Below are positions 2,049 through 57,402 of a stretch of DNA of 64,000 bases, piece after piece; position 1 is the first letter of the stretch, and the number at the start of each line of letters is the position of its first letter. This DNA is from a virus: the IMG/VR virus record IMGVR_UViG_3300023179_000073, positions 1 through 64,000 of that record, one strand, 5' to 3'. A program made the translations under genes and the position numbers. The notes under the pieces are model-generated. The model saw nothing but the letters and a program-made list of their open reading frames with translations. It had not been told where the DNA came from and did not search any database.

Positions 2049-2747
2049 ATGTTTAGAAAAAAACCAATATTGCAATATGAATCTGCAATAGATGTGTATC
2101 CCAATATTATAACTCCAGCAAAAAATCATATACCAGAATGGTACAAAGAAATCCCTCGTTGGAAAAATAATGAAATTTTTGAAATTGGTAAAGGATTTAA
2201 TATAACTGTAAAACACTGTATGCCATTTTTAGATTCTTTTACAACTGGATATATGATAGTTTTACCAAACGACCTTTATGTTAAAAATAATAATGGATCA
2301 CCTTTTATAACTTGGAATGGTACAGAGTTTCCTCCAAAGTCAAGAGATGGGGTTGCAGACTTAAATTTAGTTCCAGTAGGCCATCACCCTACAGAATTTA
2401 CTTGGCAAACTGGTGTTGCAAATACTATTCCATTAGGATTTAGCATGCTCATTACTCATCCAATAAATAGATACGACTTACCATTTACAACACTAACTGG
2501 AATTGTTGATGGGGGATTAGTTATGCATCCTAATGGTAGTATTCCGTTTTATGTTAAAGAAGGCTTTGAAGGAATAATTGCTCAAGGAACACCAATAATG
2601 CAGTTAATACCTTTTCGTCAAGAAAACTGGTCATCCAAAAAAACAAAAGGACTAACAAAGATTGCAAAAAAACATCAAACTAAAACTAATCATTTAATTT
2701 ATGGATGGTACAAAAAAACATTTTGGACACGTAAACAATATGATTAA
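2049..2747 (+). CDS. Paralogous beta-rich phage protein, copy 1 (unknown function)
   Basis: A 232-residue protein sharing a clear architecture with the gene at 11750-12463 and, more distantly, with the one at 25661-26467. Shared landmarks are IPEWYKEIP near residue 27, HCMPFLDSFTTGY near residue 55, ITHPINRYDLPF near residue 140 and GTPIMQLIPFRQENW near residue 184. It is predicted beta-rich with no signal peptide or membrane segment. I recall DUF6065-type proteins looking like the third copy and occurring near halogenases and other auxiliary genes in phages, but no enzymatic activity is known to me. Convergent with the minus-strand gene that follows (4-bp overlap of stops). Confidence 0.7.
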   Translation: MFRKKPILQYESAIDVYPNIITPAKNHIPEWYKEIPRWKNNEIFEIGKGFNITVKHCMPFLDSFTTGYMIVLPNDLYVKNNNGSPFITWNGTEFPPKSRDGVADLNLVPVGHHPTEFTWQTGVANTIPLGFSMLITHPINRYDLPFTTLTGIVDGGLVMHPNGSIPFYVKEGFEGIIAQGTPIMQLIPFRQENWSSKKTKGLTKIAKKHQTKTNHLIYGWYKKTFWTRKQYD

Positions 2748-11591: not shown

Positions 11592-11750
11592 CTAGGATAT
11601 AACTTGTGTTAGTGTTTTATAGCCAATCCATAGCCCAATAATTCCTGCGACTCCCGCAAAAACTGGAGGGGCTGGAACTGGCAATTTGAATGCTGCGAAC
11701 ACGACACCGCATCCAAAACCTGTTAATATTGATAATAAAATTTCTTTCAT
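11592..11750 (-). CDS. XapX-like small double-TM protein
   Basis: A 52-residue protein with two transmembrane helices (about 4-20 and 30-45) separated by KLPVPAPPVFAG, which is the hallmark PVPAPP...AG...G...G of XapX/DUF1427 proteins. It begins on the stop of the upstream paralogous-family gene (TAATG) and its own stop overlaps the Shine-Dalgarno of the holin-like gene. XapX proteins are of unknown function; in a phage, a role with the neighbouring membrane protein is conceivable. Confidence 0.65.
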   Translation of the reverse strand: MKEILLSILTGFGCGVVFAAFKLPVPAPPVFAGVAGIIGLWIGYKTLTQVIS

Positions 11751-12463
11751 TAGTTATATTCCTTTTTTGACCAAATTTGTTTTTTATATCCATCTGCAAT
11801 AAACTTACGTACAGAGTATGTTATATTTTTTACATACTTTTCGTCATATTCTGATGATTCTGAATTCCAAATTTCTCTTTTAATAAAAATCATTTGATAT
11901 ATTGGAGTTCCAGCAGGTATTAATCCAGAAAATCCCTTTTTTAAAACAAATGGAACTGGCCCAGTAATTGGCCACCTATCTGTATCAATAATTGCATTAT
12001 GTGTTATAAATGGTAAGTCAAATCTATTTGCTGGATGAAAATATAAAGTACTATATCCAGTTGGAGTTTTTGGCTCCCAAAAAGTATTCCAATGAAATTC
12101 TGTTTTATAATAACCATTGAAATGTGGCATAGAGTTTGACGATCTAGTGTCTTCTTTTCTAGTTGAGAGTGGTCTAATACCACCACTCCATCTGTAGTTG
12201 ATTAGTGGGTCATCTTCTTCTGTATTACAATCAAAATATACATCACATGGAAGTTCTTGTGTGTATCCAGAGGTCAAAGAATCTAAAAATGGTATACATT
12301 TTTTAGCAGTATAATCTGAGCCTAAGCCATCTATGGTTGGAACCTCTATTGGCATATCTTTAAACCATTGTGGAATATATTTTTTACTTGTTTGTGGTCT
12401 TGGAATTACAATTTCAGTTTCTTTGTCTTTTGGAATAAACGAAACTTTTTGATTATTTTTCAT
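11750..12463 (-). CDS. Paralogous beta-rich phage protein, copy 2 (unknown function)
   Basis: A 237-residue paralogue of the protein at 2049-2747. Shared blocks are YIPQWFKDMPIE (near residue 29), KKCIPFLDSLTSGY (near 57), LYFHPANRFDLPF (near 146) and GTPIYQMIFIKREIW (near 193). It sits directly downstream of the halogenase and a membrane-anchored protein. The start at ATG 12463 was preferred over an in-frame ATG at 12496 because it overlaps the upstream gene only by 11 bases. No catalytic motif is recognised. Confidence 0.7.
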   Translation of the reverse strand: MKNNQKVSFIPKDKETEIVIPRPQTSKKYIPQWFKDMPIEVPTIDGLGSDYTAKKCIPFLDSLTSGYTQELPCDVYFDCNTEEDDPLINYRWSGGIRPLSTRKEDTRSSNSMPHFNGYYKTEFHWNTFWEPKTPTGYSTLYFHPANRFDLPFITHNAIIDTDRWPITGPVPFVLKKGFSGLIPAGTPIYQMIFIKREIWNSESSEYDEKYVKNITYSVRKFIADGYKKQIWSKKEYN

Positions 12464-12821
12464 TAATTTTAAAGTCTTCTTCTGGTAAAAGAGCAAGTAG
12501 TTTTTCTGAATAACTATTTAATCCTTTATTATTTAATTCTTTTGAAACCTCTTTAATAGTTTGTTGTGACTTTTCAATGTATTCAAATGCCCAATCTCTA
12601 GAATCAGATAAAAACTTTATGAAATTTTCTTTGTGTAAACCTTGATCTGAAGAGTCAATATTTAGATTAACATTTGATATTGCTTCTTTTAACCCCTCGT
12701 TTTCAATAAAAAGTTTGGTTAGAGCAAATTGTGATTTTTTTAATTTTTCAAAGGTAGCCCAGTAGGCTATGCCAAAAGAAAGCGACAAGGTTGCAAAAAA
12801 TACAATAATTCCTGTTTGCAT
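12453..12821 (-). CDS. Membrane-anchored coiled-coil protein
   Basis: A 122-residue protein with one N-terminal transmembrane helix (residues 3-22) and a charged helical rest consistent with a coiled coil. TACAAT lies seven bases upstream of the ATG inside the end of the halogenase gene, so it may have its own leaderless promoter as well as read-through from the halogenase. Not recognised; an i-spanin-like topology is possible but no partner o-spanin is adjacent. Confidence 0.5.
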   Translation of the reverse strand: MQTGIIVFFATLSLSFGIAYWATFEKLKKSQFALTKLFIENEGLKEAISNVNLNIDSSDQGLHKENFIKFLSDSRDWAFEYIEKSQQTIKEVSKELNNKGLNSYSEKLLALLPEEDFKINEK

Positions 12822-16502: not shown

Positions 16503-16784
16503 TTATTCCATTGTTAGTGCTTGCCAAGTATTTGACCAGTCTTGCTTAGTTTTATGCTTGTTAAATTCTCTTGAAACCTCTCCACCTTCTAAATAAACTC
16601 CACCCCAAACACCCCACTCCTTACCAGATACCCCATTAGCAAAACATATTTTTTTAACAGGACACTGTTTACAAAGCGCATCAACTGTATGCCTAGATTC
16701 TTCATTATCTTCATATTTATCAAAATAAATATTTGTATCAAGGCCTAAACAAGATGCCCTATCTTTCCATAAATGCTGTTTCAT
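16503..16784 (-). CDS. whiB: WhiB-family iron-sulfur transcription regulator
   Basis: A 93-residue Wbl protein. The four cluster cysteines are C12, C38, C41 and C47 (C-x2-C-x5-C) and the GVWGG turn is at residues 58-62, with basic residues after it. Wbl proteins bind a 4Fe-4S cluster and the host sigma factor region 4 and are restricted to Actinobacteria and their phages, where they can repress host whiB genes or cause superinfection exclusion. This is the strongest single sign of an actinobacterial host. Translation is close-coupled with the sulfotransferase gene (3-bp gap). Confidence 0.93.
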   Translation of the reverse strand: MKQHLWKDRASCLGLDTNIYFDKYEDNEESRHTVDALCKQCPVKKICFANGVSGKEWGVWGGVYLEGGEVSREFNKHKTKQDWSNTWQALTME

Positions 16785-25660: not shown

Positions 25661-26467
25661 TTATTTTATTTTTTTGGGAAGTTGATGATCTTTAAATTTA
25701 TTTCCTTCTATATCTTCTCCATTATAGTATACACGATCATAAACGGTAGGAGTTTTTTTGTTATTAATTTCTCTATGATTAGCATGTTTTTCTACAACTT
25801 GTATTTCTTGATTTACTACATTTTCATTAAAAATTTCATAAGCATTTTTTAATTCAAAAGATTCACAAAAATATCTAGGAATTGGAATTAAACCAACTAT
25901 TGGTGTGTTTTTTTGTATAACTATTTCTACATTTTTTAAATCTACTTTTATGTTTAAAGTAAAAGTAAATCTAAGATTGTCAGACTCTACTACACCAGTC
26001 ATTGGACTTAATCCTGGAGTTGGAAAATTTGGTGGAGCAATTGTCATTAAATTAATCCCTGGTGGAGTTTTTAGGGTCAACGGAAAATATATTGTTAAAA
26101 TTCCATTTCCAAATGTTGAAGACGGCATAATAATGTTTTTGCCTTCATAAATTTTAGCATCTTCTCCAAACTTAATAGACAAATCTTCTAAATTGTTATT
26201 TCCGTTCCAAAAAACACTAAAAGTGTATGGCAAACTAAAAACAAAGCCTTGCATATTACCAATTGCTAACGGCAAACATTTATAAAAATGAGAAGTAAAC
26301 CAATCTCTTTTATGAGTATTTTTAAGTGGTTTTAAAAATAATTCAATATCTTTTAAATTAAAAGGCTCTATTCCTTTACTTGAAGCAACTGGGAAAAACG
26401 CAATGGTATTATCTGGAACAACCAATCCATCTTTTTGATTAATTATCATTGTTTTTTTATCTAACAT
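25661..26467 (-). CDS. Paralogous beta-rich phage protein, copy 3 (DUF6065-like)
   Basis: A 268-residue protein with KCLPLAIGNMQGFVFSLPY (about 59-77), PPGINLMTIAPPNF, LSPMTGVVES, LRFTFTLNIK and QKNTPIVGLIPIPR (about 193-206). These align in order with the CMPFLDSFTTGY, ITHP-NRYDLPF and GTPIMQLIPFR blocks of copies 1 and 2. ATG 26467 was chosen because a consensus promoter (TTGACA-N17-TATGAT) ends six bases before it. Function unknown; DUF6065 is recalled from memory. Confidence 0.65.
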   Translation of the reverse strand: MLDKKTMIINQKDGLVVPDNTIAFFPVASSKGIEPFNLKDIELFLKPLKNTHKRDWFTSHFYKCLPLAIGNMQGFVFSLPYTFSVFWNGNNNLEDLSIKFGEDAKIYEGKNIIMPSSTFGNGILTIYFPLTLKTPPGINLMTIAPPNFPTPGLSPMTGVVESDNLRFTFTLNIKVDLKNVEIVIQKNTPIVGLIPIPRYFCESFELKNAYEIFNENVVNQEIQVVEKHANHREINNKKTPTVYDRVYYNGEDIEGNKFKDHQLPKKIK

Positions 26468-26473
26468 ATATAA

Positions 26474-26502
26474 ATCATACACCTTTTACCTTCTTTTGTC
26501 AA
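26474..26502 (-). promoter_or_regulatory. Consensus leaderless promoter TTGACA-N17-TATGAT
   Basis: On the minus strand, TTGACA (26502-26497) and TATGAT (26479-26474), 17 bp apart, with the gene start exactly six bases after the -10. It overlaps the end of the carbamoyltransferase gene region only in the -35. Same design as the left-region promoters, here in the late-side strand. Confidence 0.8.
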
Positions 26503-27956: not shown

Positions 27957-28481
27957 TCATATACTTACTACATCAACTGGACCCATGCATGATGGACTAA
28001 ACTTAATAGCACAACTTACTGCCCCTACAACTCTTTTACGAAGATCCTTAGATTTTTCGGTAGCATGTAAATATCCATAGGCGTATTCAGCCCCTGATCC
28101 CATTGCTAAATAATCTAAATTATATTTAGATAAAGACATATCAACAGCATTGTGCTCATATATTTGACCTTTAACACAAATTATTAAGCCAAGATCAGCC
28201 TCTTTGCCAGTATCAACCCACCAGTCATTATAAAAATTTTTAAGTTGTTTAATAAATTTAGTTTGCATAAACTTATCTATGTCTTTTATATCTGGAACAT
28301 ATGGATTAAAGTTATATCTAATTCTTTCTCCATCTAATGCCCCTGCGTATCCAAGTAAATATGGACCAAGTTTCCAAACCTTGGGTGCTATTAAAGATAA
28401 AATTGTATTATCATCAGATGCACCACGGTCACCAGCCATATAAACCTTACCCTCGTGACGTGCTACAGCCAAAACAGTCAT
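27957..28481 (-). CDS. HslV-like Ntn-hydrolase (proteasome-type peptidase)
   Basis: A 174-residue protein with the proteasome beta-fold start MTVLAVARHEGKVYMAGDRGAS. Removing the methionine exposes T1; D17 (in GDRG) and K33 (in APKVWKL) fall exactly at the positions of the HslV catalytic triad, and LLGYAG matches the HslV G-F-A-G turn. YLAMGSGAEYAYGYL (about 130-144) is the conserved G-S-G helix start. A proteolytic or self-processing N-terminal-threonine hydrolase is likely. No HslU/ClpY gene is in the window. Preceded by a TTGACT-N17-TATACT promoter and a Shine-Dalgarno AAGGGG. Confidence 0.8.
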   Translation of the reverse strand: MTVLAVARHEGKVYMAGDRGASDDNTILSLIAPKVWKLGPYLLGYAGALDGERIRYNFNPYVPDIKDIDKFMQTKFIKQLKNFYNDWWVDTGKEADLGLIICVKGQIYEHNAVDMSLSKYNLDYLAMGSGAEYAYGYLHATEKSKDLRKRVVGAVSCAIKFSPSCMGPVDVVSI

Positions 28482-28544: not shown

Positions 28545-29165
28545 TTATTTGGTGATTTTATATCCTTTTGAAGTTAAAAGGTCTATAGCAGCCTGTATTT
28601 TTGGATTTACCTTGTCAGATTTAGACGCTGATCCGCCAGACGGCTTTGAAGTAGTATTATTAGAATTGCCAAACTTTGGTCTACCAAACCCTACAATTGA
28701 AACCATAATATTTTTTTTATTTTTTTTAAAGGCACGAAGTTTTTTACAAACCTCTCCACCGTTACGTTGGCTACCTTTAGGATCTCCAGATGTATTTCCT
28801 TCAACACACCACACTGTACCGTCGCCATTATCAGCAATAACAATACCTACGTGGCTAATTCTATCTACCCCGTCAGAAGGAAAATCAAAATATGCTATAT
28901 CTCCTGGCTCTGGATCTGCAATATCTCCATCAATCCAATTACCTGCTTTTTTGAATGCTGCTGCACCACCTGGAGTATAAACAGTATTAGGAATCTTTAC
29001 TCCTGCTTCATTTGCACACCAGTTAACAAAGGATCCACACCAAGGCTGAAAATCTGCTTTAGTAAACTTACCATATTTGGTTTCGTTATCTTTTGGACCT
29101 TCTACAGTTCCAATTTCTGCTTTTGCAACTTCAATTAAACGCTCTGCTGTACCTTGATCTGCCAT
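28545..29165 (-). CDS. CHAP-domain endolysin
   Basis: A 206-residue peptidoglycan hydrolase. The CHAP nucleophile cysteine is in QPWCGSFVNWC (about 40-50) and the histidine in RISHVGIVI (~102-110); VEGNTSG (about 121-127) is the usual third element. After a Ser/Asn-rich linker (residues ~165-180) comes a short helical tail (IQAAIDLLTSKGYKITK), likely a minimal wall-binding or dimer segment. No signal peptide, so it needs a holin. Immediately upstream lies a two-helix membrane protein and a lipoprotein, forming a lysis cassette. Confidence 0.88.
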   Translation of the reverse strand: MADQGTAERLIEVAKAEIGTVEGPKDNETKYGKFTKADFQPWCGSFVNWCANEAGVKIPNTVYTPGGAAAFKKAGNWIDGDIADPEPGDIAYFDFPSDGVDRISHVGIVIADNGDGTVWCVEGNTSGDPKGSQRNGGEVCKKLRAFKKNKKNIMVSIVGFGRPKFGNSNNTTSKPSGGSASKSDKVNPKIQAAIDLLTSKGYKITK

Positions 29166-29575: not shown

Positions 29576-29764
29576 TTATTTTTCTCCAATATCTATTAAG
29601 TCTTTTGGACATGCTCCATTAGCCGTACAAATTGGTGGTTTACATTCTGCTAACTCCCAGTTTGTTGGATCTTGACATTGATAACGATAATGTCCGTCAT
29701 ATCCACAGCCAGTTAGCAATAAGGCTAAAACAGTTGACAGTAAGAATATGCGTATTTTTGACAT
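29576..29764 (-). CDS. Small lipoprotein
   Basis: A 62-residue protein with signal peptide and lipobox LLTGC (cysteine at about residue 20). The mature part has four or five more cysteines (YQCQD, ECKPPIC, ACPK), probably disulfide-linked. It abuts the holin-like gene by zero or one base. Possible role in the lysis cassette or in surface exclusion; lipoproteins encoded by prophages often block superinfection. Confidence 0.7.
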   Translation of the reverse strand: MSKIRIFLLSTVLALLLTGCGYDGHYRYQCQDPTNWELAECKPPICTANGACPKDLIDIGEK

Positions 29765-29782: not shown

Positions 29783-29959
29783 TTATTCGTCTTCTTTACG
29801 AATTCCAATGGTTGCAAACCATATGGCTACTGAGGCTAGGGTTACATACCCAACCACTGTCTTTGCGCTACCCTCTAAAACCACCCATGCTACAAAGAAG
29901 CCAAGGAATGTAAAGTTTTCGTTTAGGGCTGCCATACCCCATTCTTTTAACTTTTTCAT
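29783..29959 (-). CDS. Small two-TM membrane protein
   Basis: A 58-residue protein, two hydrophobic helices (about 14-30 and 35-53). AAGGAG lies seven bases before ATG 29959, favouring this start over ATG 29992, which lies within the preceding gene. A second holin-like or envelope protein in the lysis cassette. No family recognised. Confidence 0.55.
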   Translation of the reverse strand: MKKLKEWGMAALNENFTFLGFFVAWVVLEGSAKTVVGYVTLASVAIWFATIGIRKEDE

Positions 29960-29960
29960 T

Positions 29961-32453
29961 TTATCTCCTTCTTCTAGGTGCAGTAGCAACAATTAATTGA
30001 CCAGCAATAATCGTTACAACCACAATATCTTCTGCTTTTTCACGTTCTGGAATAGACATATCAGCACCTATGTTAAGTAAGGCTTTGCCCAACTCACATT
30101 TTTGCTCTTCTGTCAAACCTTCAATTGCTTCATCTGGATTAAAACAAGTAGCAATTGCTCCCAGCAATGCTGCTGGACTTTCTAATACAAGCAATGCAGA
30201 TGCTACCTCTGCTGTAATGACTACAGGATTGCCATTAGCATCTTCTCTAACTTCTACTGGTATTTGTGGTGGAAGATCACGATATTCAAGTCCCGCTGCT
30301 TCTATGGCTGATGCTTCAATTGGAGCACCTTCTGCAGACTCAACTAAAGCATCTGCAACTAAATCTTTTTCTGCCAAAGTTAATACTCCATCTTCAGACA
30401 AGGCTTCTGATAGATTTATTACTTCGTCTGTAGTTATTTCTCCATCTGCAGATAACGCATCAAGAATTGCTTCAGCATCTGCAGCAGTTATATTTCCATC
30501 TTCAATTAATTCGCTAACCGCTTCTTGTATTTCTTCTACTGATAAGGTATCATTATCTTGTGAATCTTCTTGATCAGTACCCTCGTTTTCTTCAGGAGTA
30601 TTATCTTGTTCGTCATTGGATGAAGAGTCATCAGATTCAGGTGTATCCGTATCTTGAGATTCATCACCTTCAGAAGATTCATCACTCTCATCAGGAGATG
30701 GCTCTGGCTCTGTACTATCCCCTTCATCTGGAGTGGTCTCGTCTGGTTGAGTTTGTTCGTTGTTATCAACAGGGTCATAAGAAGGAGCAGAACCTCCACC
30801 AGTAGTTATATTTGAACTTTGTTGTGCGGGTATAGAAATAACAGTCTCAGTATATTGACTTACAGGTCCAGACCAGTTAGCAACTCTAATAGTATAGGTA
30901 GCACCTTCTGTCAAACCAGTTAACTGAATAAATTCTGGTGCACCATCAGTATTTAAAGTTTGACCTTCGTATGGATTCTCTGCATTTGGATCATCAGTTA
31001 TTACTTGATAGAACCAAGTGTTTGCTGTATACCCTTCTGGTAACTCAGGAGCAATAGTTACTGTTGTTCCCTCAACAACTGGTTCTGCTAGTATTGGAGC
31101 GGGAGTAGGAATATTATTATTAATAACAGAAATTAATTGATTTGCTTTAGTGTTTAGTGTTGATTCAATAGATGTTTTTGTTGATACCGCTGAATTTATG
31201 GTATTAGTTAAAGATGTTGTGTTAATAGCATTTATATTAGATGTATTTGTTGCGTTCTGTGCAACTACTGGACTTAGACTTGCATTTAGTTGAAATATAG
31301 TTGCATTTGCAGCATCAACTGCTGCTTGAACTGAGGCATTATTTGGATCTACTATAGGAGTAAAATTTGGACCCTGACTTATTTGCCCATTAAATCCAGC
31401 ACCGTTATTTGTATCAGTAATATTCGTTACTGAACCTCCTGCTGTTTCTCTATAATTAAATCTAGCGCCACCTGGAATTGGTCCAATTGCAGAAACATCT
31501 GCCATCCATGCACCATTGTTTGGATTTACATCAGCATTAAATCTAATTTGAACCATTTGTGTTGAAGCATCTTGTTGTGGAAATGGTCTAACATCCCATG
31601 CAATATCTAATGAAGAGCCTGTTGTTGCATATGTAATTCCAGTTCCTGTACTCCATGTTGTCCAGTCCCACCCTGCAATAGAAATTGACGGGGCATTTGG
31701 AGTTGAGTAGTAATTTGCACCTTCATTTACACCAAAAGTAATTGTTGCATTAGATCCAACATAAACATTGTTGTATAAAGTTCCACCCATTAATAAACCA
31801 AATGGTAAATTCATTTGAACGCCAGCATCATCTACGCCAGCCAAAACATTTGTGCTTGCTCCAATAGTTGCTTGTAAAGCATTTACTGCATTTTGTGCAT
31901 TGTCAATTGCAATATTTGCTTGAGTTAATTCTGTTTGTGCATTTGCCTGTGCTGCTACCGCCTCTGCCTTAGCAAGTCCTGCTTCTGATACTGCTGTTTG
32001 AGCCTGAGTAATTTGTGTTCCTAAATTGGTTATGGCTGTGGTTGCAACAACTACGGTGTCTTTTGCATTTTGCACTACTTGAGAACTTTGATCTATTGGG
32101 GTAATCGCTAAATTAACGTTATTAATGGTATTAATAGATGTCTGAACATCATTTACTGCTGAATTTGCAATTGATATTTTTGATGATATTTCTGCAACAA
32201 TAGGCTGGGCTTGAGATAGTTCGGTTTGTGCTTGTGTTACCTCTACTGTAGCATTGTTTGTGGCTGTAATAGCCTGCTGAACCTCTGTGGTAGCCGTTGC
32301 AAGGGCACTATTGACTGCCTGTTGGGCAGGGCTAACCACTACCTGTTCTTGATTTTCTGTAGCCCCAGCGTGATCTGGAGCCATAATTCCAAAAATTGTT
32401 ATGCATAAACCTACCCCAAAGGCTATTATCAGTTTACGTTTAAGATTCTTCAA
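29961..32453 (-). CDS. Large exported surface protein with coiled coil, beta domain and acidic region
   Basis: An 830-residue protein, TTG start with GGAG 14 bases upstream. Signal peptide to about residue 31 (AGA-TE). Then a helical Q/T/A-rich coiled coil (35-195), a beta-sandwich-like domain (about 205-345, LYNNVYVGSNATITFG), a second helical region, a fibronectin-III-like domain (~445-545), an Asp/Glu/Ser low-complexity linker (~550-650), two degenerate EF-hand-like repeats (~645-720), and a C-terminal hydrophobic stretch ending in RRRR, resembling a membrane anchor. This is the architecture of a host surface adhesin, not a virion fibre. It may be displayed on the infected cell. Confidence 0.7.
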   Translation of the reverse strand: MKNLKRKLIIAFGVGLCITIFGIMAPDHAGATENQEQVVVSPAQQAVNSALATATTEVQQAITATNNATVEVTQAQTELSQAQPIVAEISSKISIANSAVNDVQTSINTINNVNLAITPIDQSSQVVQNAKDTVVVATTAITNLGTQITQAQTAVSEAGLAKAEAVAAQANAQTELTQANIAIDNAQNAVNALQATIGASTNVLAGVDDAGVQMNLPFGLLMGGTLYNNVYVGSNATITFGVNEGANYYSTPNAPSISIAGWDWTTWSTGTGITYATTGSSLDIAWDVRPFPQQDASTQMVQIRFNADVNPNNGAWMADVSAIGPIPGGARFNYRETAGGSVTNITDTNNGAGFNGQISQGPNFTPIVDPNNASVQAAVDAANATIFQLNASLSPVVAQNATNTSNINAINTTSLTNTINSAVSTKTSIESTLNTKANQLISVINNNIPTPAPILAEPVVEGTTVTIAPELPEGYTANTWFYQVITDDPNAENPYEGQTLNTDGAPEFIQLTGLTEGATYTIRVANWSGPVSQYTETVISIPAQQSSNITTGGGSAPSYDPVDNNEQTQPDETTPDEGDSTEPEPSPDESDESSEGDESQDTDTPESDDSSSNDEQDNTPEENEGTDQEDSQDNDTLSVEEIQEAVSELIEDGNITAADAEAILDALSADGEITTDEVINLSEALSEDGVLTLAEKDLVADALVESAEGAPIEASAIEAAGLEYRDLPPQIPVEVREDANGNPVVITAEVASALLVLESPAALLGAIATCFNPDEAIEGLTEEQKCELGKALLNIGADMSIPEREKAEDIVVVTIIAGQLIVATAPRRRR

Positions 32454-32525: not shown

Positions 32526-32558
32526 ATAAAAAAGAGGGTAGAAATTAATCTACCCTCT
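32526..32558 (-). terminator. Strong rho-independent terminator after the S-layer-like gene
   Basis: AGAGGGTAGA (32533-32542) and TCTACCCTCT (32549-32558) form a perfect 10-bp stem around a six-base loop. On the minus strand it is followed by TTTTTT. It separates the S-layer-like gene from the next transcription unit, which has its own promoter. Confidence 0.9.
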
Positions 32559-32573
32559 AATTTTATTTAGAAA

Positions 32574-34190
32574 TTATTTCTTTGCAAGAATTAACTTCTG
32601 TAGTGCTTGAATTTGCTTGTTAATTTGAGCAATTAAAGCAACAATTGCTTTTAATACTTCTGCATTTGAAACTGCACCTGAAGCATCTACTACTGAATAA
32701 GATACTACCTTTGCGGAATCAGTTGCTACGTATGCTGGTAAATCTACAATTAAATTATATGATCCAGCAGTATTACCTACTGTAAATTTAATTGCTCTTG
32801 TTCCAGCAGTATCTAACAAATCAGCAGATGTTGGAGCAGAAACTGCTGTCAACTGTCCACCTGAAATTGCTACGCCAGCACCAAGAGTTGCTCCACCGTG
32901 AACCTTAGCGCCATTAATATCTGTTGCTGAGATTGTAAGTGTTGCAATTTCTCCAGCCTTGTACTCTTTCTTATCAAGAGTCGCTGTGTACTTATCTACA
33001 CCACCAGCACATGCTGCTACAAAATCATTTGAATAGATTGTTGTTGCATCTGAACGAGTGTGTGCAATACGAACTGTTGCTGAACCTGAAGTTGAAGCGC
33101 ATGTCCATCCACCAGTCTGAACTGCAGTAGCAGAAGAAGCACCACCTACAGAAACAGCAGTAACTTGAGAAGTATACTTTGTGGTATCAGCAGTTGGAGT
33201 AACTCCAGCCAATTGATTTCCAGCAGCATCCTTAACTACAAAGTCATAAGTTCCTGTACGTGCTCCACCTGATTGTGCAATATCTACTCCAGTTACTAGA
33301 ATTGACTCTGCACGACCTGTAAATGTAATATTTTTAGTTGCAAGAACTGTTCCATTAAATGTAATTGTAACTGTTGTGCTTACTGGCTTGTTTTCATTTG
33401 CAGTTCCTTGAACTACATATAAAACTCCAGCAACACCAGTTTTGGCTGCTGCATTTACCTGTGTGCTTGGAGCAGCATCAAATGCCACTACTGCGCCACC
33501 AGTTGCGCTTGCCTGAATTACACCGTTGGTTGATAATTGTGCTGCATAAGCATCCATTGCACGAATGTTAATGTAGCCTGTGTTGCCATTAGTGACAGTT
33601 GTTGAACCAGCAACATCTACGCTAGATGTTAGAGTTCCTTGTGTTGATGTATCTTGTACACGAACATAGGAGTCTGCTACAGACAATACATTTGTCTTTG
33701 CAGTTGTTCCTGCGTAGATTGTTTTAATATCAATTGTAGAAGTGGTTGATCCAACCTTCTTCTTTTGAGTTACAGTTACAGTTCCTGCAGCATTAACAGT
33801 TAATTTAACATTTGTTGGTAAGTTTACTGCTGCTGTTGTAGTTGCTGTAAATGTAAATAACTTACCTAAACTGGTAAGTGTAACCCCTGTAGGGTTTGAT
33901 CCTGCTGCTGTGTAATCAGTAAATGATGCAGGTCCAGAAATTTCCAATGTAACATTGTCATCTGCTGTTGCAGCCAAAGCCTCGCTTGTAGTTAATACAA
34001 CAACTGCATTAACTCCAGCCTCTGCCTTAGTTGTGTCTGCTAATACTGTTACACCACGAGCACCATTAGCAAGACTATCAGATAATACATATCCGTTAGA
34101 CACTGCTGCTTGCGCTTGTGGAATAGCAACAAAGAATGTGCTTGCTACTGCTGCAGCGGTAACAAGTGCGATCCTCTTTAATGAATTCAT
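32574..34190 (-). CDS. S-layer-like exported Ig-domain protein
   Basis: A 538-residue protein with a Sec signal peptide cleaved after AQA at about residue 28. The mature protein is threonine/alanine-rich with repeated Ig-like beta sandwiches (for example VTVLADTTKAEAGVNAVVVL, GEIATLTISATDINGAKVHG), only two cysteines, and a C-terminal helix EVLKAIVALIAQINKQIQA with heptad spacing. From memory this matches abundant surface proteins of freshwater Nanopelagicales. Base composition looks richer in G/C than its AT-rich neighbours. It has AAGGAG and a strong terminator, as expected for a highly expressed gene. Confidence 0.75.
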   Translation of the reverse strand: MNSLKRIALVTAAAVASTFFVAIPQAQAAVSNGYVLSDSLANGARGVTVLADTTKAEAGVNAVVVLTTSEALAATADDNVTLEISGPASFTDYTAAGSNPTGVTLTSLGKLFTFTATTTAAVNLPTNVKLTVNAAGTVTVTQKKKVGSTTSTIDIKTIYAGTTAKTNVLSVADSYVRVQDTSTQGTLTSSVDVAGSTTVTNGNTGYINIRAMDAYAAQLSTNGVIQASATGGAVVAFDAAPSTQVNAAAKTGVAGVLYVVQGTANENKPVSTTVTITFNGTVLATKNITFTGRAESILVTGVDIAQSGGARTGTYDFVVKDAAGNQLAGVTPTADTTKYTSQVTAVSVGGASSATAVQTGGWTCASTSGSATVRIAHTRSDATTIYSNDFVAACAGGVDKYTATLDKKEYKAGEIATLTISATDINGAKVHGGATLGAGVAISGGQLTAVSAPTSADLLDTAGTRAIKFTVGNTAGSYNLIVDLPAYVATDSAKVVSYSVVDASGAVSNAEVLKAIVALIAQINKQIQALQKLILAKK

Positions 34191-34206
34191 TTTTCTCCTT
34201 GTTTGT

Positions 34207-35982
34207 TTATATTATGTTTAATCTATCAAGAAAATCTCTAACATCGTCAGGCATTTTCCTGTTGTCTAATTCTACCATAGCCTTCTGCTTCTCTGCAAGT
34301 CGTGTAGAGGTAGACCAAGTATGAATCTCAATCTCATGGTTAGAATCTTTTGGTGTATGTGATATTGCTCCAAAAACAGCGCCACATACAGCGTCTGCTA
34401 AGTCTTTAGATTTTTTACGTGGGTGGTCAACTCGTGTATTTTTCATAATTTTTAATTCTGACATTTCTTCTAATAATAATGGAATCATTGGAATTGCGAC
34501 TCTTTCTTCATATATCATCATTGCCAAGTCTTCATAATGTTTTTTAGCAACAGAAACAGTGTCAGTTTTTATTCCTACCGCTTTTAGTTCTTGTTGAATA
34601 TCAAAAGATTGCCAACGATCAAATGAAACCATTCCAATATTAAATCCTTGTCTGCGTAAATTAATAATCCATTGTTTTACTTCTGATAAATTAACAGGGC
34701 CTTCTGCTTTTGGTTCCCACCAAGCAACCGCATCTACAATAACCATTGGCGCTACTTGTTCATAATCTTTAATAACTTGAATATTTACCCATTTATCTAC
34801 GTGGGCAATTGCAACAGCACACTTATCATGTTTTTGGGCAAGGTCAGCATGAATATAATAAACCTTGTCTGGATCTGGCTTAAATGATTCATCAAATCTT
34901 CTAAAGTTATCAATTGGATTTCTTAGTATCATGCATTTTTCTAACTTATCTTTTTGTTTAAAAAATGCATCTGATGCAAATGTTGGCATACATGCAAAAC
35001 GCATCATTGCATCTCCAAGGTCTGTATAAAATGCTAACTTAAAATCATCTATTTTTCTTGTTGGGTTTACTTCCCATGTTGGTTTTTTAAGTGCCAAGAC
35101 TTTTGGAACTTTATAAGAAATAATAGTATCTTCTTCCCAACTAATCTCAAACTGATTTCCTGAGTCATCGTGTGGCAAACCTTCATTAATTATAAAATTA
35201 TATTTTTTTTCAATAGTTTCTTTTTCTGCAATAACATCTTCATATCTTTTTGAAATAAAGTCACCCTGATAACGAGGGAATGAAAGAAGAACAACCTTAC
35301 CTAAATCTGGAAAACGAGAATCTACAGTACCACGAAATGCTTTATAAATATTTTCTGCAGTCTTACCCTGTTCATTGCCAGTTCCAACCTCAGATGCAAA
35401 ACCAGAAATTTCATCAAGCACTGCAAGCAACAAGTTCAAACCTTCATGTGATTCTCTTTCTGAGTGACCAGAATAAACCGTTACTGTTTTATCAAACTCA
35501 ATTGAGTCTACTTTTGCATTATATTTTCCTGCAAACCATGGTGATTTTTCTATTTTAGTTTTAAAGCCTTTAAAGAATACGTTCTTGGCTTGTTGTGCGT
35601 TAATGGCTACGTTGATAATATCAATTGCATCCCCGCTTGGTTTTCCATAGTATCTAGCAGGATCTTTAAGACATAGCAATTTATATACAATATACGCACA
35701 GGCTACTGTTGATACAAAATCTTTTCCAGATCCCTTGCCTAATTGTAAAATAATTTCATTTTTAGTGTATTTGTCAAAATATTGAGCACCAACAACAGAT
35801 CCAAATATTTCTTGTAATTCTTCTTTACGATAAACTTGACTCATCGCCTCCACAATTTCATATTGAATTGCAGATAATGGTGGTTGGCCAAGATAGTCTG
35901 CAGATTCAACAAATGTTTTTGCATCTACTGGAATTTCATCAAATTGATTTTCTTTTAAAACTTCTAGAAAATCATTGAACAT
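34207..35982 (-). CDS. terL: Terminase large subunit
   Basis: A 591-residue two-domain packaging motor. The ATPase has Walker A LGKGSGKD (about 81-88) and Walker B LLAVLDEIS (~182-190). The nuclease has YYIHADLAQKHDK (first acidic residue near 376), SFDRWQS and the last acidic residue in KSKDLADAV near 553. It cuts and translocates concatemeric DNA. Start at ATG 35982 rather than TTG 35991; it overlaps the TerS stop by 11 bases. Its order after the S-layer-like gene is unusual; packaging genes normally neighbour portal and capsid genes. Confidence 0.93.
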   Translation of the reverse strand: MFNDFLEVLKENQFDEIPVDAKTFVESADYLGQPPLSAIQYEIVEAMSQVYRKEELQEIFGSVVGAQYFDKYTKNEIILQLGKGSGKDFVSTVACAYIVYKLLCLKDPARYYGKPSGDAIDIINVAINAQQAKNVFFKGFKTKIEKSPWFAGKYNAKVDSIEFDKTVTVYSGHSERESHEGLNLLLAVLDEISGFASEVGTGNEQGKTAENIYKAFRGTVDSRFPDLGKVVLLSFPRYQGDFISKRYEDVIAEKETIEKKYNFIINEGLPHDDSGNQFEISWEEDTIISYKVPKVLALKKPTWEVNPTRKIDDFKLAFYTDLGDAMMRFACMPTFASDAFFKQKDKLEKCMILRNPIDNFRRFDESFKPDPDKVYYIHADLAQKHDKCAVAIAHVDKWVNIQVIKDYEQVAPMVIVDAVAWWEPKAEGPVNLSEVKQWIINLRRQGFNIGMVSFDRWQSFDIQQELKAVGIKTDTVSVAKKHYEDLAMMIYEERVAIPMIPLLLEEMSELKIMKNTRVDHPRKKSKDLADAVCGAVFGAISHTPKDSNHEIEIHTWSTSTRLAEKQKAMVELDNRKMPDDVRDFLDRLNII

Positions 35983-36508
35983 CGTGGACAATTGTAATCA
36001 CTTCTCCCTCTTTGGCAATTTGAGAAAGACGCTGCATAATTAAATCACGAACCTCTGGATGAGTTGAGGCAATTTCTCTTAATATTTCAACAAGCACTTC
36101 TTGTCGTCTTTCAATTTCAACCATTTCTTCTGCAAGTTCTTTATTTTCTAATAGCCCTGCTTTTTGTAACATTTCAATTCTAGATTTTTCAATGTCCATA
36201 ACTAATTTAATTGCTTGAGTTTTTGCACTAAGATTATTAGTTAAACTTGATTCATCAATAACCTCATAAGCCTTTGTAATAAGTTTGCTGTAATGAGTAT
36301 CAGCCCCAGCAAGGGCTTCTTTAGCACGAGCACGAATGGCATCATTAGCAGAAGCCATGACTTTCCACTCATTAATTAATGAAACTACACGAGTACGAGG
36401 AATATCTAACTCTTTAGAAATTTTTGTTGGATCTTGCCCTTTAAGATATTCTGTAACTACTTTATTGACTTCATCAAGATGTTCAATTAATTCTGTTTCA
36501 GTTGACAT
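35972..36508 (-). CDS. terS: Terminase small subunit-like HTH protein
   Basis: A 178-residue protein with an N-terminal helix-turn-helix (DPTKISKELDIPRTRVVSLINEW, around 26-48) followed by a long helical oligomerisation region with ERRQEVLVEILREIAS. Upstream of and overlapping TerL, it is the expected DNA-recognition subunit. Sequence families of TerS are too divergent for certainty; position and HTH carry the call. Confidence 0.75.
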   Translation of the reverse strand: MSTETELIEHLDEVNKVVTEYLKGQDPTKISKELDIPRTRVVSLINEWKVMASANDAIRARAKEALAGADTHYSKLITKAYEVIDESSLTNNLSAKTQAIKLVMDIEKSRIEMLQKAGLLENKELAEEMVEIERRQEVLVEILREIASTHPEVRDLIMQRLSQIAKEGEVITIVHDVQ

Positions 36509-49486: not shown

Positions 49487-49502
49487 TTTTTAATTTTTAT
49501 CC

Positions 49503-49943
49503 TTAGTTTGGAATTCCAACAATAATTAAATTTACTGCTAGAGATAAATTACCAGATGCTCCAAATCTTACAGCACCTTCAATTCTAGATGTAGTTACAG
49601 TATTTAAAACAACGCTAATATTTTGTCCCGCTGGCGTTTGTCCAATATTAACTGGTGTTGCTGTAACAATTGGAGGGTATTTAAAGTCGCTAAGATCATA
49701 TGTAAAAGTTTTTTCGTTTCCAGCAGTAACAGTTGCATCACTGTAAATAGGAACATATGCACCAATTATTCTGGTTTCTGATGTTTTTGTATTTTGTTTA
49801 CCTGCAGTTACAGTATCTATAGTTGTATAGTTATATGTTGCAGATGATACTTGTGTAGATAAATCATTTACAGCATCAACAAGTGAATATAAATATGTAA
49901 CATCAAGGGGTTGCCCTCTTTCTGGTAGCGGTACTTTAGCCAT
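49503..49943 (-). CDS. Tail-tip/structural protein (146 aa)
   Basis: A 146-residue protein with an N-terminal helix (YLYSLVDAVNDLSTQVSS), a beta-rich body (TFTYDLSDFKYPPIVTATPV), and AGGAGG plus a TATAAT upstream. It is the last gene of the tail module and probably virion-associated. Function not known. Confidence 0.55.
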   Translation of the reverse strand: MAKVPLPERGQPLDVTYLYSLVDAVNDLSTQVSSATYNYTTIDTVTAGKQNTKTSETRIIGAYVPIYSDATVTAGNEKTFTYDLSDFKYPPIVTATPVNIGQTPAGQNISVVLNTVTTSRIEGAVRFGASGNLSLAVNLIIVGIPN

Positions 49944-49960
49944 TATTTCCTCCTATTTGA

Positions 49961-50386
49961 TTATACCAAAACTTCAATGCCTGAATCATATATTTCAAGA
50001 CCTGCATTTAATACTTTACTTGATGATTCAACTTGAATAATAACACGAACATTTGTTACTCCAGTATTAATAAAAGAGTATGTGTGTATTGGAGATGTTC
50101 CATGATAGATTGGGGTAGTATTATCAAATCCAACAAAAATATCATATTTTGGTCTATTTAATTCATCATCCCATACAACAGTAGTAATTGTTTCCGTAAT
50201 TTGCAATGCTCCAGTAACTGATGCAATAGAATCATCTTCAACAATATTTATTGGAGACCATTGAGAAGTTCTGTTTTTATCATCAGAAACAATCCTATAT
50301 CTAAAGATATACCCAACACTATCAGAGTTTATTGCTGGTAATAATGCCTTTTTAATAATTACTTTTTTAATACCTGAATCAGCCAT
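49961..50386 (-). CDS. Minor tail protein, Fn3-like (141 aa)
   Basis: A 141-residue beta-rich protein with VGYIFRYRIVSDD and TTVVWDDELNRPKYDIFVG, which together look like a fibronectin-III-like sandwich. Placed in the tail module after the large tip protein genes. Probably virion-surface or baseplate. Confidence 0.55.
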   Translation of the reverse strand: MADSGIKKVIIKKALLPAINSDSVGYIFRYRIVSDDKNRTSQWSPINIVEDDSIASVTGALQITETITTVVWDDELNRPKYDIFVGFDNTTPIYHGTSPIHTYSFINTGVTNVRVIIQVESSSKVLNAGLEIYDSGIEVLV

Positions 50387-51555
50387 TATGATTGTATTCC
50401 GCCAGAAACGTCTACAGAAAATCTAAATTCAATATAATTATTTGTGTTAGGATTTTTAATGATTGGCGATGCATCTGCGTTCTGAATAACTGAATATCCT
50501 GTTAGTCCATATAATGGATTTACTGTTGCAATGTTTTCTAATCTTAATGAATCTAAAGCAACATAATAATCTGGCGATGGAACTAATGATGGGCCACTAT
50601 CTTCTTCAAGGACACATGCGTATATTTTAATGTTTGTTACTGCATCCCATGTAAAGTTTGCACTTCTATATAATTCTTGAAGTTGTTTAGTTACAACAAA
50701 ATATCTTTCAGTGGAAAAGTCATACGCTCCACCACTACTATCATCTAAAACTTCCGCTTCAAGTCTTGCAAATTCATTTCCATTTGTAGATGCAAACTCA
50801 ACAAGAACTCTTACTGTATGTGGAACTAAGGCTGAGTCTCCATCTTTATTTATTAAAGAAAATGCTAAACGCAATTCATCTGTAGGAGAGTTTTTGTTAA
50901 AATCAATTGCAGTTCCAGTTAAGCGTATATAGTTAGAATCTTCTTCAACTACAAAATGATCTAGTGTTGGACCGCTATCTTCGCTAATTGTAAGATGTGC
51001 TTCGTCACCTTGAATCATAATAATATTATTTAAAAATCTTGGCCTTTCATATCTTTCGGCTCTGTTTGTTTTAAAAAATATTGGATTATCAGATGCGGTT
51101 TGAAACACAGGATCTTCAATTGCAATAATATTATTATTTTCTGGTTGATCAAGTGCTGATAAAAATGTATCAATTTCTACTGCTGCGCCTATAGATTGAT
51201 ATTCCCAATTTTCTGTTTGTGTAAAAGCAAATACAGTTTTACTATCATATGCACCAGCAGCGGGATTAAAGCCTGCTGAATAAATTCCTACTTCTGTTAT
51301 TTCATATCTTTCTTCTGTAGGTAATTCTGCAGTTAATACAATTTTATCTATACCGCCTTCATTTACAAAACCTCTTGAAGAAATTGGTACACGAAACATT
51401 TCAAAATCTAAATTATTTTTTGTTGAGTAATCGCCTAATTCATCTCCTGTTGCCAACGGGGTAGCACCACAACCAACAGCCAAATATGAAGCATACGCTG
51501 GAGCCTGTCCAAGCAGGTATTTAGCAATAATATTTTTACCAGTATTAGTTATCAT
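50386..51555 (-). CDS. Minor tail/tail fibre protein (389 aa)
   Basis: A 389-residue protein. It begins with MITNTGKNIIAKYLLGQ and ASYLAVGCGATPL, a motif I know from siphovirus tail fibre-like proteins, and continues as acidic beta-rich repeats (EDSGPTLDHFVVEEDSNY; EDSGPSLVPSPDYY). It is a candidate receptor-binding or structural component. Overlaps the preceding gene by four bases. Confidence 0.6.
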   Translation of the reverse strand: MITNTGKNIIAKYLLGQAPAYASYLAVGCGATPLATGDELGDYSTKNNLDFEMFRVPISSRGFVNEGGIDKIVLTAELPTEERYEITEVGIYSAGFNPAAGAYDSKTVFAFTQTENWEYQSIGAAVEIDTFLSALDQPENNNIIAIEDPVFQTASDNPIFFKTNRAERYERPRFLNNIIMIQGDEAHLTISEDSGPTLDHFVVEEDSNYIRLTGTAIDFNKNSPTDELRLAFSLINKDGDSALVPHTVRVLVEFASTNGNEFARLEAEVLDDSSGGAYDFSTERYFVVTKQLQELYRSANFTWDAVTNIKIYACVLEEDSGPSLVPSPDYYVALDSLRLENIATVNPLYGLTGYSVIQNADASPIIKNPNTNNYIEFRFSVDVSGGIQS

Positions 51556-52403
51556 GATGCATATTCTCCAAGGTCTGCCTCATATATTGTACCACTTGTA
51601 GTTATTTGTGTTTCTACTTGTTCATCATTGTTTAAATTAATAAACTCAATAACCAAGTCTCCTAATTCATTTAAATAAACATTACTACCGTTTGCCCCAT
51701 TGCCCTCTTCTGGAATTTTATTTTCTAATTTTATAGCAAATCCAGCAAAAAATTTATCAGAAGTTTTTTGTAGTCCAAGAATATTGTTTGGGTTGTACTG
51801 TTGTTGTATTGCAGATAAATTTTTAATTGGCTGATATGATATTTTTTGTCCATTAACAATGTCAGATCTTGTTATACTTAACAATTCTTGACCACCAATA
51901 TCTTCAAATATTAAATCAGCCATTACCTCTATTGGCACTGCTTCTTCGTCAAACAAAACGGTATCTATTGGTGCTGTTTTAACTGGAGCAGTTTCTACAG
52001 AAAACATTCTCATTGCTGGTGTTATTTCTGGTACTGCTGGGGTTGCAGTAATATTTGCAGATTCAGGTGCTGGAGCCTTTATTACTCCAGAATCTAGTGA
52101 TCTTCCAAAATACTCTGCTTCTTTTTTATTTAAAATTGCAAGCATTGCCATAGAATCTATATGACCATTTGAAAGTGTTACTGATGCTCTTTCATTTGCT
52201 GTTAACTGTTGATATGCAGGTACATCATTAAAATATCCTTGAGCATTTACTCCACCTCTACGCTCAACTTCTGCTGCTCCAACAATTCCTATTGCTTCTG
52301 CTGTTTTAGCAGCATCAATTGCATTACTAACTACATTGCCTGCTTCATTTGCTAAGTTCCTACCCATTTCTTTTGCCCAGTTTTGGCTATCTGCATAACC
52401 CAT
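51552..52403 (-). CDS. Minor tail protein (283 aa)
   Basis: A 283-residue protein with an N-terminal helical part (WAKEMGRNLANEAGNVVS), an alanine-rich middle (AIDAAKTAEAIGIVGAAEV), a proline-rich linker and a C-terminal beta region. Coupled with neighbours by short overlaps. By place a tail-tip or tail-spike adaptor. Confidence 0.55.
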   Translation of the reverse strand: MGYADSQNWAKEMGRNLANEAGNVVSNAIDAAKTAEAIGIVGAAEVERRGGVNAQGYFNDVPAYQQLTANERASVTLSNGHIDSMAMLAILNKKEAEYFGRSLDSGVIKAPAPESANITATPAVPEITPAMRMFSVETAPVKTAPIDTVLFDEEAVPIEVMADLIFEDIGGQELLSITRSDIVNGQKISYQPIKNLSAIQQQYNPNNILGLQKTSDKFFAGFAIKLENKIPEEGNGANGSNVYLNELGDLVIEFINLNNDEQVETQITTSGTIYEADLGEYAS

Positions 52404-52404
52404 T

Positions 52405-55400
52405 TTATACCTCCGCCAAATAAACTGTCATGTCTGGACCATTTATTTTTCTTGTATAATCAATATTATATACTACAAACTTAGAATCTGTAGATGTTAC
52501 TAAATCTATGTTATTGGAATCTTTATAATTAATATTTACCATATCGCCTAACTGAATTGTTGGAGTTGCAAATATTTTAATACCAATAGATTTTTTAGGT
52601 TCCATTAATTTATCAATTAACCAACCCATTAAACTTTCTGCATCGTCTTGTGTTTGAATATATGGACTTTCTAAAGTAAATTCATTATTTCCATAAATCA
52701 TTCTACTTAATTTAATATTATCAAACTTTTGTTTTTGTACTAATGTAGATGTAATTAATGAAGATCCAGTTAGTTCAGGATTAGCAAAATTGCTTTTCTT
52801 TTTAAAATAATTATCAACAGTAAGTTCATGTGTTGTGTCTTGTGTAAATGTTATACCTTGAATTTTTAAATAGTTTCCCGTAGTTTCGTCAAGGTTTAAT
52901 GCTGTATCTGTAGAGTTAAATATTAAAAATTCTGCCCCATAGGAGTCTGCATAAAATCCAGATGTGGTATATGTTTTAATTCTATTAAAAGTTGGAGATA
53001 ATTGAGCATAAAGAGCGGGGTATGCACGATCATATTTTATATCAAAATAAGCACACTCTCTCATAATAGAGCCAAACTCTTCAAAATACATATTGTATTT
53101 AGGTGGTTGTTGAGAACTTATGCCAGATAGGTAAGTTGATTGAACTACTCCGCTCATTGCATATTTTCTAAATGATTCATTAATGTTTATTACATTATCT
53201 CCAAAAAGATTTGTCTTGGTATTAAAGGTTCCAGACTCTTCTGTTTGTCCAAAAGTTTTAGGAATTATTTCAGACAATGTTGACACTGTATTTTGTGAAT
53301 AATTTGCAGACAGGGCATAAATGTTTTCAAACATACATCTAGAAGATCCACGAACAAATGGAGCCATGTTGTTGTAGGTTGGAAGTGGATCTGGGTCGTC
53401 AACTATTTTAATTAACTTATTATTAATATATAAATAAAATCTTCTTATCTTTCCAATATCTTCATACTCTACTGCTAAATCATATACTGTTGGATTTTCT
53501 TCTGCAGTAGTTCTATACTGTCCAGTAAATCTTCCGTCATCAACAATAATTTTTGATAACCCGCCCCAAAGTTTTATTGGAATTGCTTCATTGTTAGATG
53601 CATTTTTTTTAATTTTATAAAACACAATATTGTTAATAGATATATTAGATTCGCCTTGATTGTTTAAATTTAAATAAGAATTTATATTTTCTTCTGTTAA
53701 TGCAACAATTTCAAAATAATATCCATTGTTTGTTTCTGGATTAAGAAGAACTGCTAAACCTCCAGATCCACCACCAATGGATACTGGTTTGTCTGGTTGT
53801 GCTCCAGAAACCTGATAGTATGTTGTACTTCCAGTTGGTGTCTGAGTACGGTTTTCATTGTTTTCAATTTTACCAATAATTCTTATTCTTGTTCCAAAAT
53901 GCCTATATGCATTGTCTAATTCTTTGTATACATAAGAAACTAGTTTTATTGCTGTTTCTGTTGTTGTAAATGATGGACCACTCATTACTAAAGCAGAAGA
54001 CTGAATTGTTCCAGACTGAGTTGATAGTGTGCTGTTGGTTGGAGTTTCTGTTAAATGACTTGATGACATAAAATTCTTTATTGTTCCACCTCTAGATGTT
54101 TGCTGTGCTTTGTCATTATTTTCTCCAGCAACGCCCAAAGTTGTTTCTGGTAATGAAATATCTTCTAGTAAGGCTGTTGTAAATAAATATTGATCTTCCA
54201 TTTCACAACCTCTTACATAGTCATTATTTGACCAATAAGGATTAATGACTGCAGTATGCTCTGTAATTGTTGTTCCAAATTGTCCACGACCGTGTTCAGA
54301 TACCGCTCCATTTTCTAAAAGAGTTGTACCATCAACTGTTTCAAGTTTTGGAACTGAATATATTCTTATTAAGCCTGTTGGGTATATTTTTCCATTAAAA
54401 GGAAGAGATTTAAAATAATTTTGATATTCTTGATTGCTTGTAATCCAAACATTTCCTACACCAGTAACGTTAAACTGTGCTGCATCATATTTAATAATTT
54501 CACCGTTAGAATAAAAATATCCTTGATATCTTGTAAGCCAATAAACATTTTCTCCTAAGTCTAAAACATTATTTACAACTACACGATTTACAACAGTTGG
54601 AGCCACGGCAGGTAAGTCTGAATTAAGTGGCATTGCGCCTAAAACATATTTACCTTGTTTTGATGCAACCTCATTTATTGTTTTAGTTGAATCAGTTCCT
54701 GAAACTTCCCACAATAAGGCAGGTTTATAAATCCAAGTTTTTTCTTTATCTATCATACTTGATTGACGAATAGATCCATAAGATCTTTGTATATATCTAG
54801 ACGTATAGTTTATTTTTCCATTATTATAAACTTTTTTATCTTCTGATGCTATAGAAATAATATTAGGAACTGTACCAGATGTTTGATTTTCAATAATTCC
54901 ATCTTGTGTTTGATTGTTGGATCCAGATAAAGTCATATTTATTGTTCTTGATGTTGATAGCATATAGTTTTTGCTCATTACAATAAAATTATTATATTCA
55001 TCAAAAAACATTGCACTTTGTGTTGCTACTGCTAATTGATTTAAAACTTCTGCAACAGTTTGGTCTGGAGCAATAAAGAAAAACGGAATAATTGGTTCTG
55101 ATTCATCGGTTTCTCTATAAAATGCATAATTGCTAAAACCAATATAATCAAGCAATAAACTAATTGCGTAACTAAGTGATACCTCTGTTACCAGCATTCT
55201 TGGTGCTGGATTTGATTCTAAGAAAAAATAAAAATCTCTTAATTGAAGTTGCAATGATCCAGCAGTAACATCTGCTTGTGGAAAACCATCTGAGTATAAA
55301 GTTTTAATAGGAACCCAATAGTCAAACCTTTCTACATTCAGTATTTTTTCATAGAAATTAAATTTAATGTTTTTGCGAATGTAGTCTTTTACGATGCTTG

Positions 55401-56766: not shown

Positions 56767-57402
56767 TTAGACTTCTTCCAGTGTTACCGATATATTCCAA
56801 AGGTCATGATTTGTTCCACCACGTTTTACGACGGAATAACTAAAGTCTGCAAAATATACTTGAATAATTTGATTATATCTATTTAAAGCATTATACTGAT
56901 AATTCTGTCCTTCAAAATTTGTATATTTATCATAAGCCAAATACATCCAGAAGGGGCCTTGATGGTTTTCATACCAGTCAAGTAGTTCTACGCCACCTGC
57001 ACCACCATCTGCCGTATATTCATCTGTTGTTCTTATATCTGGTGATAGTCCTGTTGTTTCATTATATTCCGCCAAACCTGCGTACCCTCTTGATGGAAGC
57101 ATGTTCCAGGATACTGACATGCTTAACTTATCTGCAATGTGATATGAGCGCATACGACCATTAATAGTTCTTTGACGTTGCTCAATTCGCTGGGTATTGA
57201 ATTGCATATCCCCTCTATTATGATCAGATAAAATAATAAATTGATCTAATAGGTCTGGATCTGTTTCTGCTGTATCTGCTCCAACCTCAATGCCAGTAGG
57301 CACGTAGAAACCATTGCTAAGCGTTCCAGCATTGTTTGCCCACAAAATTCCTTGTGGCCTACTAAATCTACGTCGTCCAGTTAAATATGCGCTGGTAGCC
57401 AT
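56767..57402 (-). CDS. Distal-tail-like protein (211 aa)
   Basis: A 211-residue beta-rich protein (WMYLAYDKYTNFEGQNYQYNAL; DLWNISVTLEEV). It is directly downstream of the tape measure, the position of the distal tail or first tip protein in siphoviruses. Stops and starts abut both neighbours. Confidence 0.65.
   Translation of the reverse strand: MATSAYLTGRRRFSRPQGILWANNAGTLSNGFYVPTGIEVGADTAETDPDLLDQFIILSDHNRGDMQFNTQRIEQRQRTINGRMRSYHIADKLSMSVSWNMLPSRGYAGLAEYNETTGLSPDIRTTDEYTADGGAGGVELLDWYENHQGPFWMYLAYDKYTNFEGQNYQYNALNRYNQIIQVYFADFSYSVVKRGGTNHDLWNISVTLEEV

Follow-up and report, generated by a model that had tools for sequence, protein, structure and literature searches.

A fixed gene position in freshwater actinophages that holds apparently exchangeable, very probable homologues of a host surface-type protein

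What is the gene for an exported protein that looks like a cell-surface layer protein doing between the packaging and lysis genes of a phage? The question is raised by positions 32,574 to 34,190 of a 64,000-nt stretch of DNA (hereafter the window), which covers positions 1 to 64,000 of the IMG/VR record IMGVR_UViG_3300023179_000073. The source record is a 79.6-kb virus contig with a whiB gene, which serves as an actinophage marker in published work (PMC10202952, PMC9878933) and marks the source genome as that of an actinophage. A preliminary description had read the gene product as an S-layer-like protein with Ig repeats, resembling those of the freshwater Nanopelagicales and unusual for a phage. 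In lakes, the Nanopelagicales (acI) are the dominant bacterioplankton, and their microdiversity is thought to be driven by phage predation (PMC10202952).

An exported protein between packaging and lysis genes

The open reading frame is intact, and its signals are set out with those of its neighbours in Table 1. Its product opens with a textbook Sec signal, MNSLKRIALVTAAAVASTFFVAIPQAQA^A with an AxA site, and is rich in Ala (16.7%) and Thr (15.2%). Signal peptides, here and in the relatives, were called by eye and from their conservation. In these respects the preliminary description stood, as it did for the strong Shine–Dalgarno sequence and the strong terminator: the signal peptide is conserved in all relatives, the Shine–Dalgarno sequence and often the terminator are unchanged across related phages that carry different proteins at this place, and the terminator sequence is identical in most phages with the window's type of protein (type I, below) and in some with type II. 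The higher G/C content that had been described was likewise found (40.3% versus about 33%), but it fails as an argument for foreign origin. The GC3 of the gene is 0.163, within the phage range of 0.11–0.26, with third positions as AT-rich as those of the neighbours, so that the raised G/C content is explained by Ala, Thr and Gly codons, that is, by amino-acid composition. A recent foreign origin judged from G/C content was ruled out on the same value.

Table 1. Features of the gene and its surroundings, in window coordinates
Feature	Position	Strand	Evidence or remark
Type I S-layer-like secreted protein	32574..34190	(-)	538 aa, ATG start
Sec signal peptide, residues 1-28, cleavage after AQA	34107..34190	(-)	sequence; common to all three slot types
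Shine-Dalgarno AAGGAG	34195..34200	(-)	4 nt upstream of ATG; recurs across related phages
C-terminal coiled-coil-like helix and basic tail, residues 506-538	32577..32675	(-)	region most host-like
Intrinsic terminator AGAGGGTAGA-TTAATT-TCTACCCTCT and T run	32533..32558	(-)	10-bp perfect stem
Large terminase terL	34207..35991	(-)	phrog_2, 4.7e-17; constant upstream flank of slot
cc830, second secreted protein: coiled coil, acidic Pro/Asp/Glu linker	29961..32453	(-)	constant downstream flank of slot
Small membrane protein, holin candidate	29783..29992	(-)	position and sequence; no database name
62-aa lipoprotein, lipobox LLTGC	29576..29764	(-)	between holin candidate and endolysin; could be spanin-like or an exclusion lipoprotein
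Endolysin	28545..29165	(-)	phrog_21825, 2.7e-26; lysis module downstream of slot
Proteasome-subunit-like (Ntn hydrolase-like) protein	27957..28481	(-)	near lysis genes; Pfam Proteasome E 0.0011, below cut-off
DUF6065 protein	25661..26482	(-)	E 9.1e-36; similar-looking ORFs at 2049-2747 (+) and 11750-12496 (-)
Third secreted protein, 229 aa	24947..25636	(-)	C-terminal amphipathic helix
WhiB-like gene, actinophage marker	16596..16769	(-)	PF02467, 2.6e-13

Relatives of the protein occur in 139 viral contigs, with about 74–92% identity among the best 80, and the gene is under purifying selection (median pairwise dN/dS 0.22), so the reading frame is not a chance one. Searches of PADLOC, PHROGs and PDB sequences with the protein gave no convincing match, and a tblastn search of INPHARED returned no relative. 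The isolated Nanopelagicales phages E7 and F5 belong to another lineage (PMC10202952).

AlphaFold2 models β-strand-rich domains followed by a 29-residue terminal helix (residues 509–537), with a mean pLDDT of 66.8, values mostly between 70 and 90 over residues 220–538, and a poor N-terminal third. Foldseek matches this model to tandem-Ig proteins, among them SbsB, SbsC, Sap and EA1 from S-layers and equally adhesins, complement and alpha-2-macroglobulin; because so many of these are multi-Ig proteins outside S-layers, the fold alone cannot decide S-layer identity. The Ig repeats of the preliminary description thereby gain a beta-rich model and tandem-Ig matches, although the model is of moderate confidence and the folds are not specific to S-layers. 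The C-terminal heptad helix fares similarly: hydrophobic residues take 70% of its a/d positions versus 26% elsewhere, but shuffling gives p of about 0.10 for the window protein by itself, with a stronger signal in type II tails (p of 0.014 or less). Foldseek also returns Ig-bearing phage proteins, and Ig-like folds are frequent on virions, as would suit a particle protein used for decoration or adhesion. We consider such a role exceedingly improbable, given the Sec signal peptide with its AxA site, nearest relatives that are cellular secreted proteins, and the distance of the gene from the tail genes (window ~49500–63450).

In most contigs with enough flanking sequence, the order is terS, terL, the gene studied here, cc830, the holin candidate, the lipoprotein gene, p135 and the endolysin gene; in four divergent contigs (terL near 55%), terL is followed by cc830 and the gene studied here lies further on. 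For cc830 there is no Pfam family above the cut-off and, in one protein search of 121 host genomes, no convincing homologue and one weak match; whether it might be a phage-specific partner of the protein upstream is raised here as a question only. Over the same pairs of phages, median dS is about 0.67 for both of these genes and 1.1 for terL, for which recombination or codon constraint may account. Some related phages have two similar-looking copies of the proteasome-subunit-like gene (L215 4155–4724 and 10239–10772; L192 4531–5100 and 11075–11608). Actinobacteria themselves possess proteasomes.

One position, three types of secreted protein

The preliminary description had singled out the gene as an unusual phage copy. 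Rather than a lone oddity, it proves to be one occupant of an always-filled and apparently swappable slot in a large group of freshwater phages. We examined 156 contigs that extend sufficiently beyond a terL of 70% identity or more, taking one locus per contig. The slot directly 3′ of terL is filled by a secreted-type ORF in every one of them (156/156), and all 156 ORFs open with a signal peptide of one kind (MNSFKK and close variants). The complete ORFs have three bodies, 83 of type I (that of the window), 23 of type II and 32 of type III, and the 18 cut slots were left untyped. Type I is over-represented in this tally because it was searched for; a search with the terL of one type II phage, blind to slot content, gave 80 loci, among which there are 8 type I, 16 type II and 32 type III. 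Phage contigs with type II in the slot came to light when the more common kind of host protein served as query.

Mapped onto a tree built from 113 distinct terL proteins, slot type changes at least 15 times, the least possible number being two, and well-supported branches force 7–9 changes per type. As judged from the sequences, phages swap different host-type versions of a surface protein into one fixed place. In a phage with different neighbours (L065), a frame like a read-through tRNA (2109–2255; ..GSNPGFPAVISRR) lies directly 5′ of the type I copy and marks a possible transfer site.

Host relatives and matching tails

An initial scan of the genome collection with the phage alignment found no match, and the link to hosts was reached only through a tail-motif scan and whole-genome searches. 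Some type I phages other than that of the window end in ITCVKGKxTKKVT..PxCPxGYKKK. A degenerate DNA pattern for this tail picked out 65 stretches among 84,980 species genomes, and the tail stands at the extreme C terminus of about 65 proteins, most with a visible signal peptide. Nearly all of the records are titled as freshwater or aquatic Actinobacteria metagenome-assembled genomes, some bearing what appear to be automatic names (Bifidobacterium breve or Ferrithrix). This tail, in the form ITCVKGKxTKKVTxxxPxCPxGYKKK (L082–L146), occurs on many different freshwater actinobacterial secreted proteins and has the look of a signal, specific to the lineage, for sorting to the surface or anchoring there.

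The host set consisted of 296 genomes of one order, centred on a genome linked to Candidatus Nanopelagicaceae, a family of Candidatus Nanopelagicales. Secreted proteins in 5 of these genomes are matched by a profile made solely from phage proteins (best E 6.9e-42). Phage and host proteins are collinear from end to end, up to and including the C-terminal helix, with 32–36% overall identity for the window protein and conservation of Cys364, Cys394 and the motif DKxxYxxGE.A.LT. Two of the host homologues lie on contigs of 1.16 and 1.33 Mb and are therefore chromosomal. In the hosts, an ECF sigma factor gene usually precedes the homologue, which adjoins polysaccharide or O-antigen-ligase-like genes; a Pfam search gives the family, phage and host members alike, no name.

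The other two slot types also have host counterparts. Type II phage protein finds matches in 78 of the 296 genomes, at up to 46% identity over the full length. The type III profile finds one host homologue in a chromosomal context (E 2.5e-63) and a second at a contig end; an artificial type III consensus tail used as query had no host match. A tree of 65 proteins places types I and II in separate phage clades, the first together with the four type I hosts and the second inside the type II hosts, with full support for the branch between the two groups; the tree was made by a quick method, and long host branches leave the exact sister unsure. All host prevalences are lower bounds, because the genomes are often fragmentary and the gene often lies at contig ends.

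With full-length homology, a signal peptide, a C-terminal coil and a tail of a host subtype, the window protein has the features of the Nanopelagicales family, and it is very probable that the slot gene encodes a secreted phage homologue of a host surface-type protein. The resemblance to a protein of freshwater Nanopelagicales that had been proposed is supported by homologues on megabase host contigs, and the similarity on which that proposal hung is present. For the narrower reading, a putative S-layer protein, the secretion signal speaks in favour; Pfam finds no SLH, CWB2 or similar known wall-anchoring domain in the slot protein or in its host relatives.

Likeness to hosts is greatest in the tails. 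The last 40 residues of the window protein are about 67% identical to those of the best host, versus 33–35% for the body; the corresponding values for the tails of type II pairs are 60–88%, and bodies are 32–49% identical to the closest host proteins. Each tail subtype (INKQI, NLVIKIQKK, SVNTAL..LVNKLLKK and LRTLI..NLVLKIQKK) has a host match: SVNTAL..TALVNKxLKK is common to phages L277, L282 and L298 and hosts L323, L326 and L329, and LRTLI..NLVLKIQKK to phage L305 and hosts L343 and L344. For the body, the best match is often a host other than the one that matches the tail, and in phage L278 the body is of type II but the tail of type III. The helix of the window protein used alone as query has matches in only 4 of the 296 host genomes, so its tail subtype is rare among those searched. 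Among phages, the tail is not more conserved than the body, probably because tails are swapped; the idea that it is the most constrained part within phages was dropped, its dN/dS of 0.24 being no lower than that of the body.

These comparisons bear on three further readings. First, a shed, soluble protein might bind the tail fibres of rival or sibling phages in water or lysates without coating any cell. Such a decoy would likewise explain the diverged body and would agree with host tails that have no known anchor domain, but phage and host tails agree in each subtype, which hints that the protein has to dock on the host, and we find this reading very unlikely. Second, the phage might top up a layer that is no longer renewed after host shutdown, so that the cell stays whole, or escapes the notice of grazers, until the virions are ripe. 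Homology over the whole length and a slot that is always filled are in keeping with such maintenance or disguise; however, simple replacement predicts near-host sequence, against the 32–49% identity of the bodies to the nearest host proteins searched, and we find it distinctly unlikely. Third, the protein might act as a poison subunit that co-assembles with the host protein through the shared coil and breaks the lattice or loosens its anchoring, aiding lysis and release. A coil and tail shared with the host, a diverged body and a constant place directly before cc830 and the holin candidate, lipoprotein and endolysin genes fit this reading; a gene placed ahead of the lysis genes could also serve in lysis. 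The body, though, keeps the full host architecture under purifying selection, which a poison would not need, and the gene lies elsewhere in the four divergent contigs; we regard a weakening of the envelope as unlikely.

Proposed role and known systems

The reading that we prefer, with a probability of roughly one in two, is that a phage-adapted homologue of a host surface protein coats the cell late in infection and masks its receptors. The slot protein would be made in quantity, probably late in infection, and would leave the cytoplasm through the host's Sec pathway. The helix and basic tail at its C terminus, matching host tails, would join it to the host envelope, where the diverged body would cover or replace the host's own layer. 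With its receptors masked, the cell would most likely turn away competing phages (superinfection exclusion), and new progeny of the phage itself would not be lost by attachment to the dying cell or its debris. Exchange at the slot would maintain a fit between the phage version and the host strain, and would leave that version unlike what rival phages recognise.

Several lines of evidence point this way. First, the signal peptide, the host homology and the host-type tails together suggest export and docking on the host envelope, and display on the infected cell is likely. Second, the position between packaging and lysis genes, our one guide to timing, suggests late expression. Third, the constant presence of the gene points to a real benefit, and the exchange of bodies and tails to a part in surface interactions that are specific to strains. 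Receptor masking itself, the best explanation of what the displayed protein may do, we hold at close to even odds or slightly less. Pairwise dN/dS averages show no positive selection on the body, and their median of 0.22 bears no direct mark of an arms race. There are precedents among surface proteins: SlpA is a phage receptor in C. difficile (PMC10100898), and CwpV blocks phage DNA entry (PMC4737114).

More broadly, the slot may be a dedicated surface cassette, a reading with as good a chance of being right as wrong: the phage group would always carry one captured and diversified host surface protein, exchange its body and tail by recombination between constant flanks, give the infected cell a new identity in place of its own and mirror the diversity of host surface proteins. 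That mirroring would make the host protein a candidate battleground, as receptor or as barrier; the tail subtypes would be sequence tags that could predict phage–host pairs; and the slot makes surface takeover by lytic phages testable.

Among known systems, the S-layer proteins SbsB, SbsC, Sap and EA1, whose assembly domains are Ig-like, are likewise secreted and are among the tandem-Ig matches returned by Foldseek, whereas the slot protein has no sequence similarity to solved structures and no SLH domain, and its modelled fold also matches many proteins that are not S-layer proteins. Exclusion factors such as the lipoprotein of phage TP-J34, gp15 of HK97 and the host protein CwpV (PMC4737114) are exported and act at the surface, as is proposed for the slot protein; those factors act on DNA entry, and the likeness lies in the proposed role. 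A block to superinfection by a phage S-layer-type protein is already a published idea: in the part of the report available, it is postulated for Gene_23, a putative S-layer gene of the methylophage Melnitz (PMC9004378). There the host is of another phylum and the gene is treated by annotation only, with neither host homologues nor slot swapping analysed in that part. Our search of open-access literature turned up nothing on the slot protein family, on the Nanopelagicales gene in the role of a phage cassette or on a slot of this exchangeable kind. Finally, the secreted family of the Nanopelagicales (L183:9557–11416, L184:8899–10596 and L361:4864–6936) shares with the slot protein its signal peptide, collinearity, beta-rich body, basic-ended C-terminal coil and paired tail subtypes; the phage version differs in a body only 32–49% identical and in a gene that lies between terL and the lysis genes, away from any sigma-factor neighbour.
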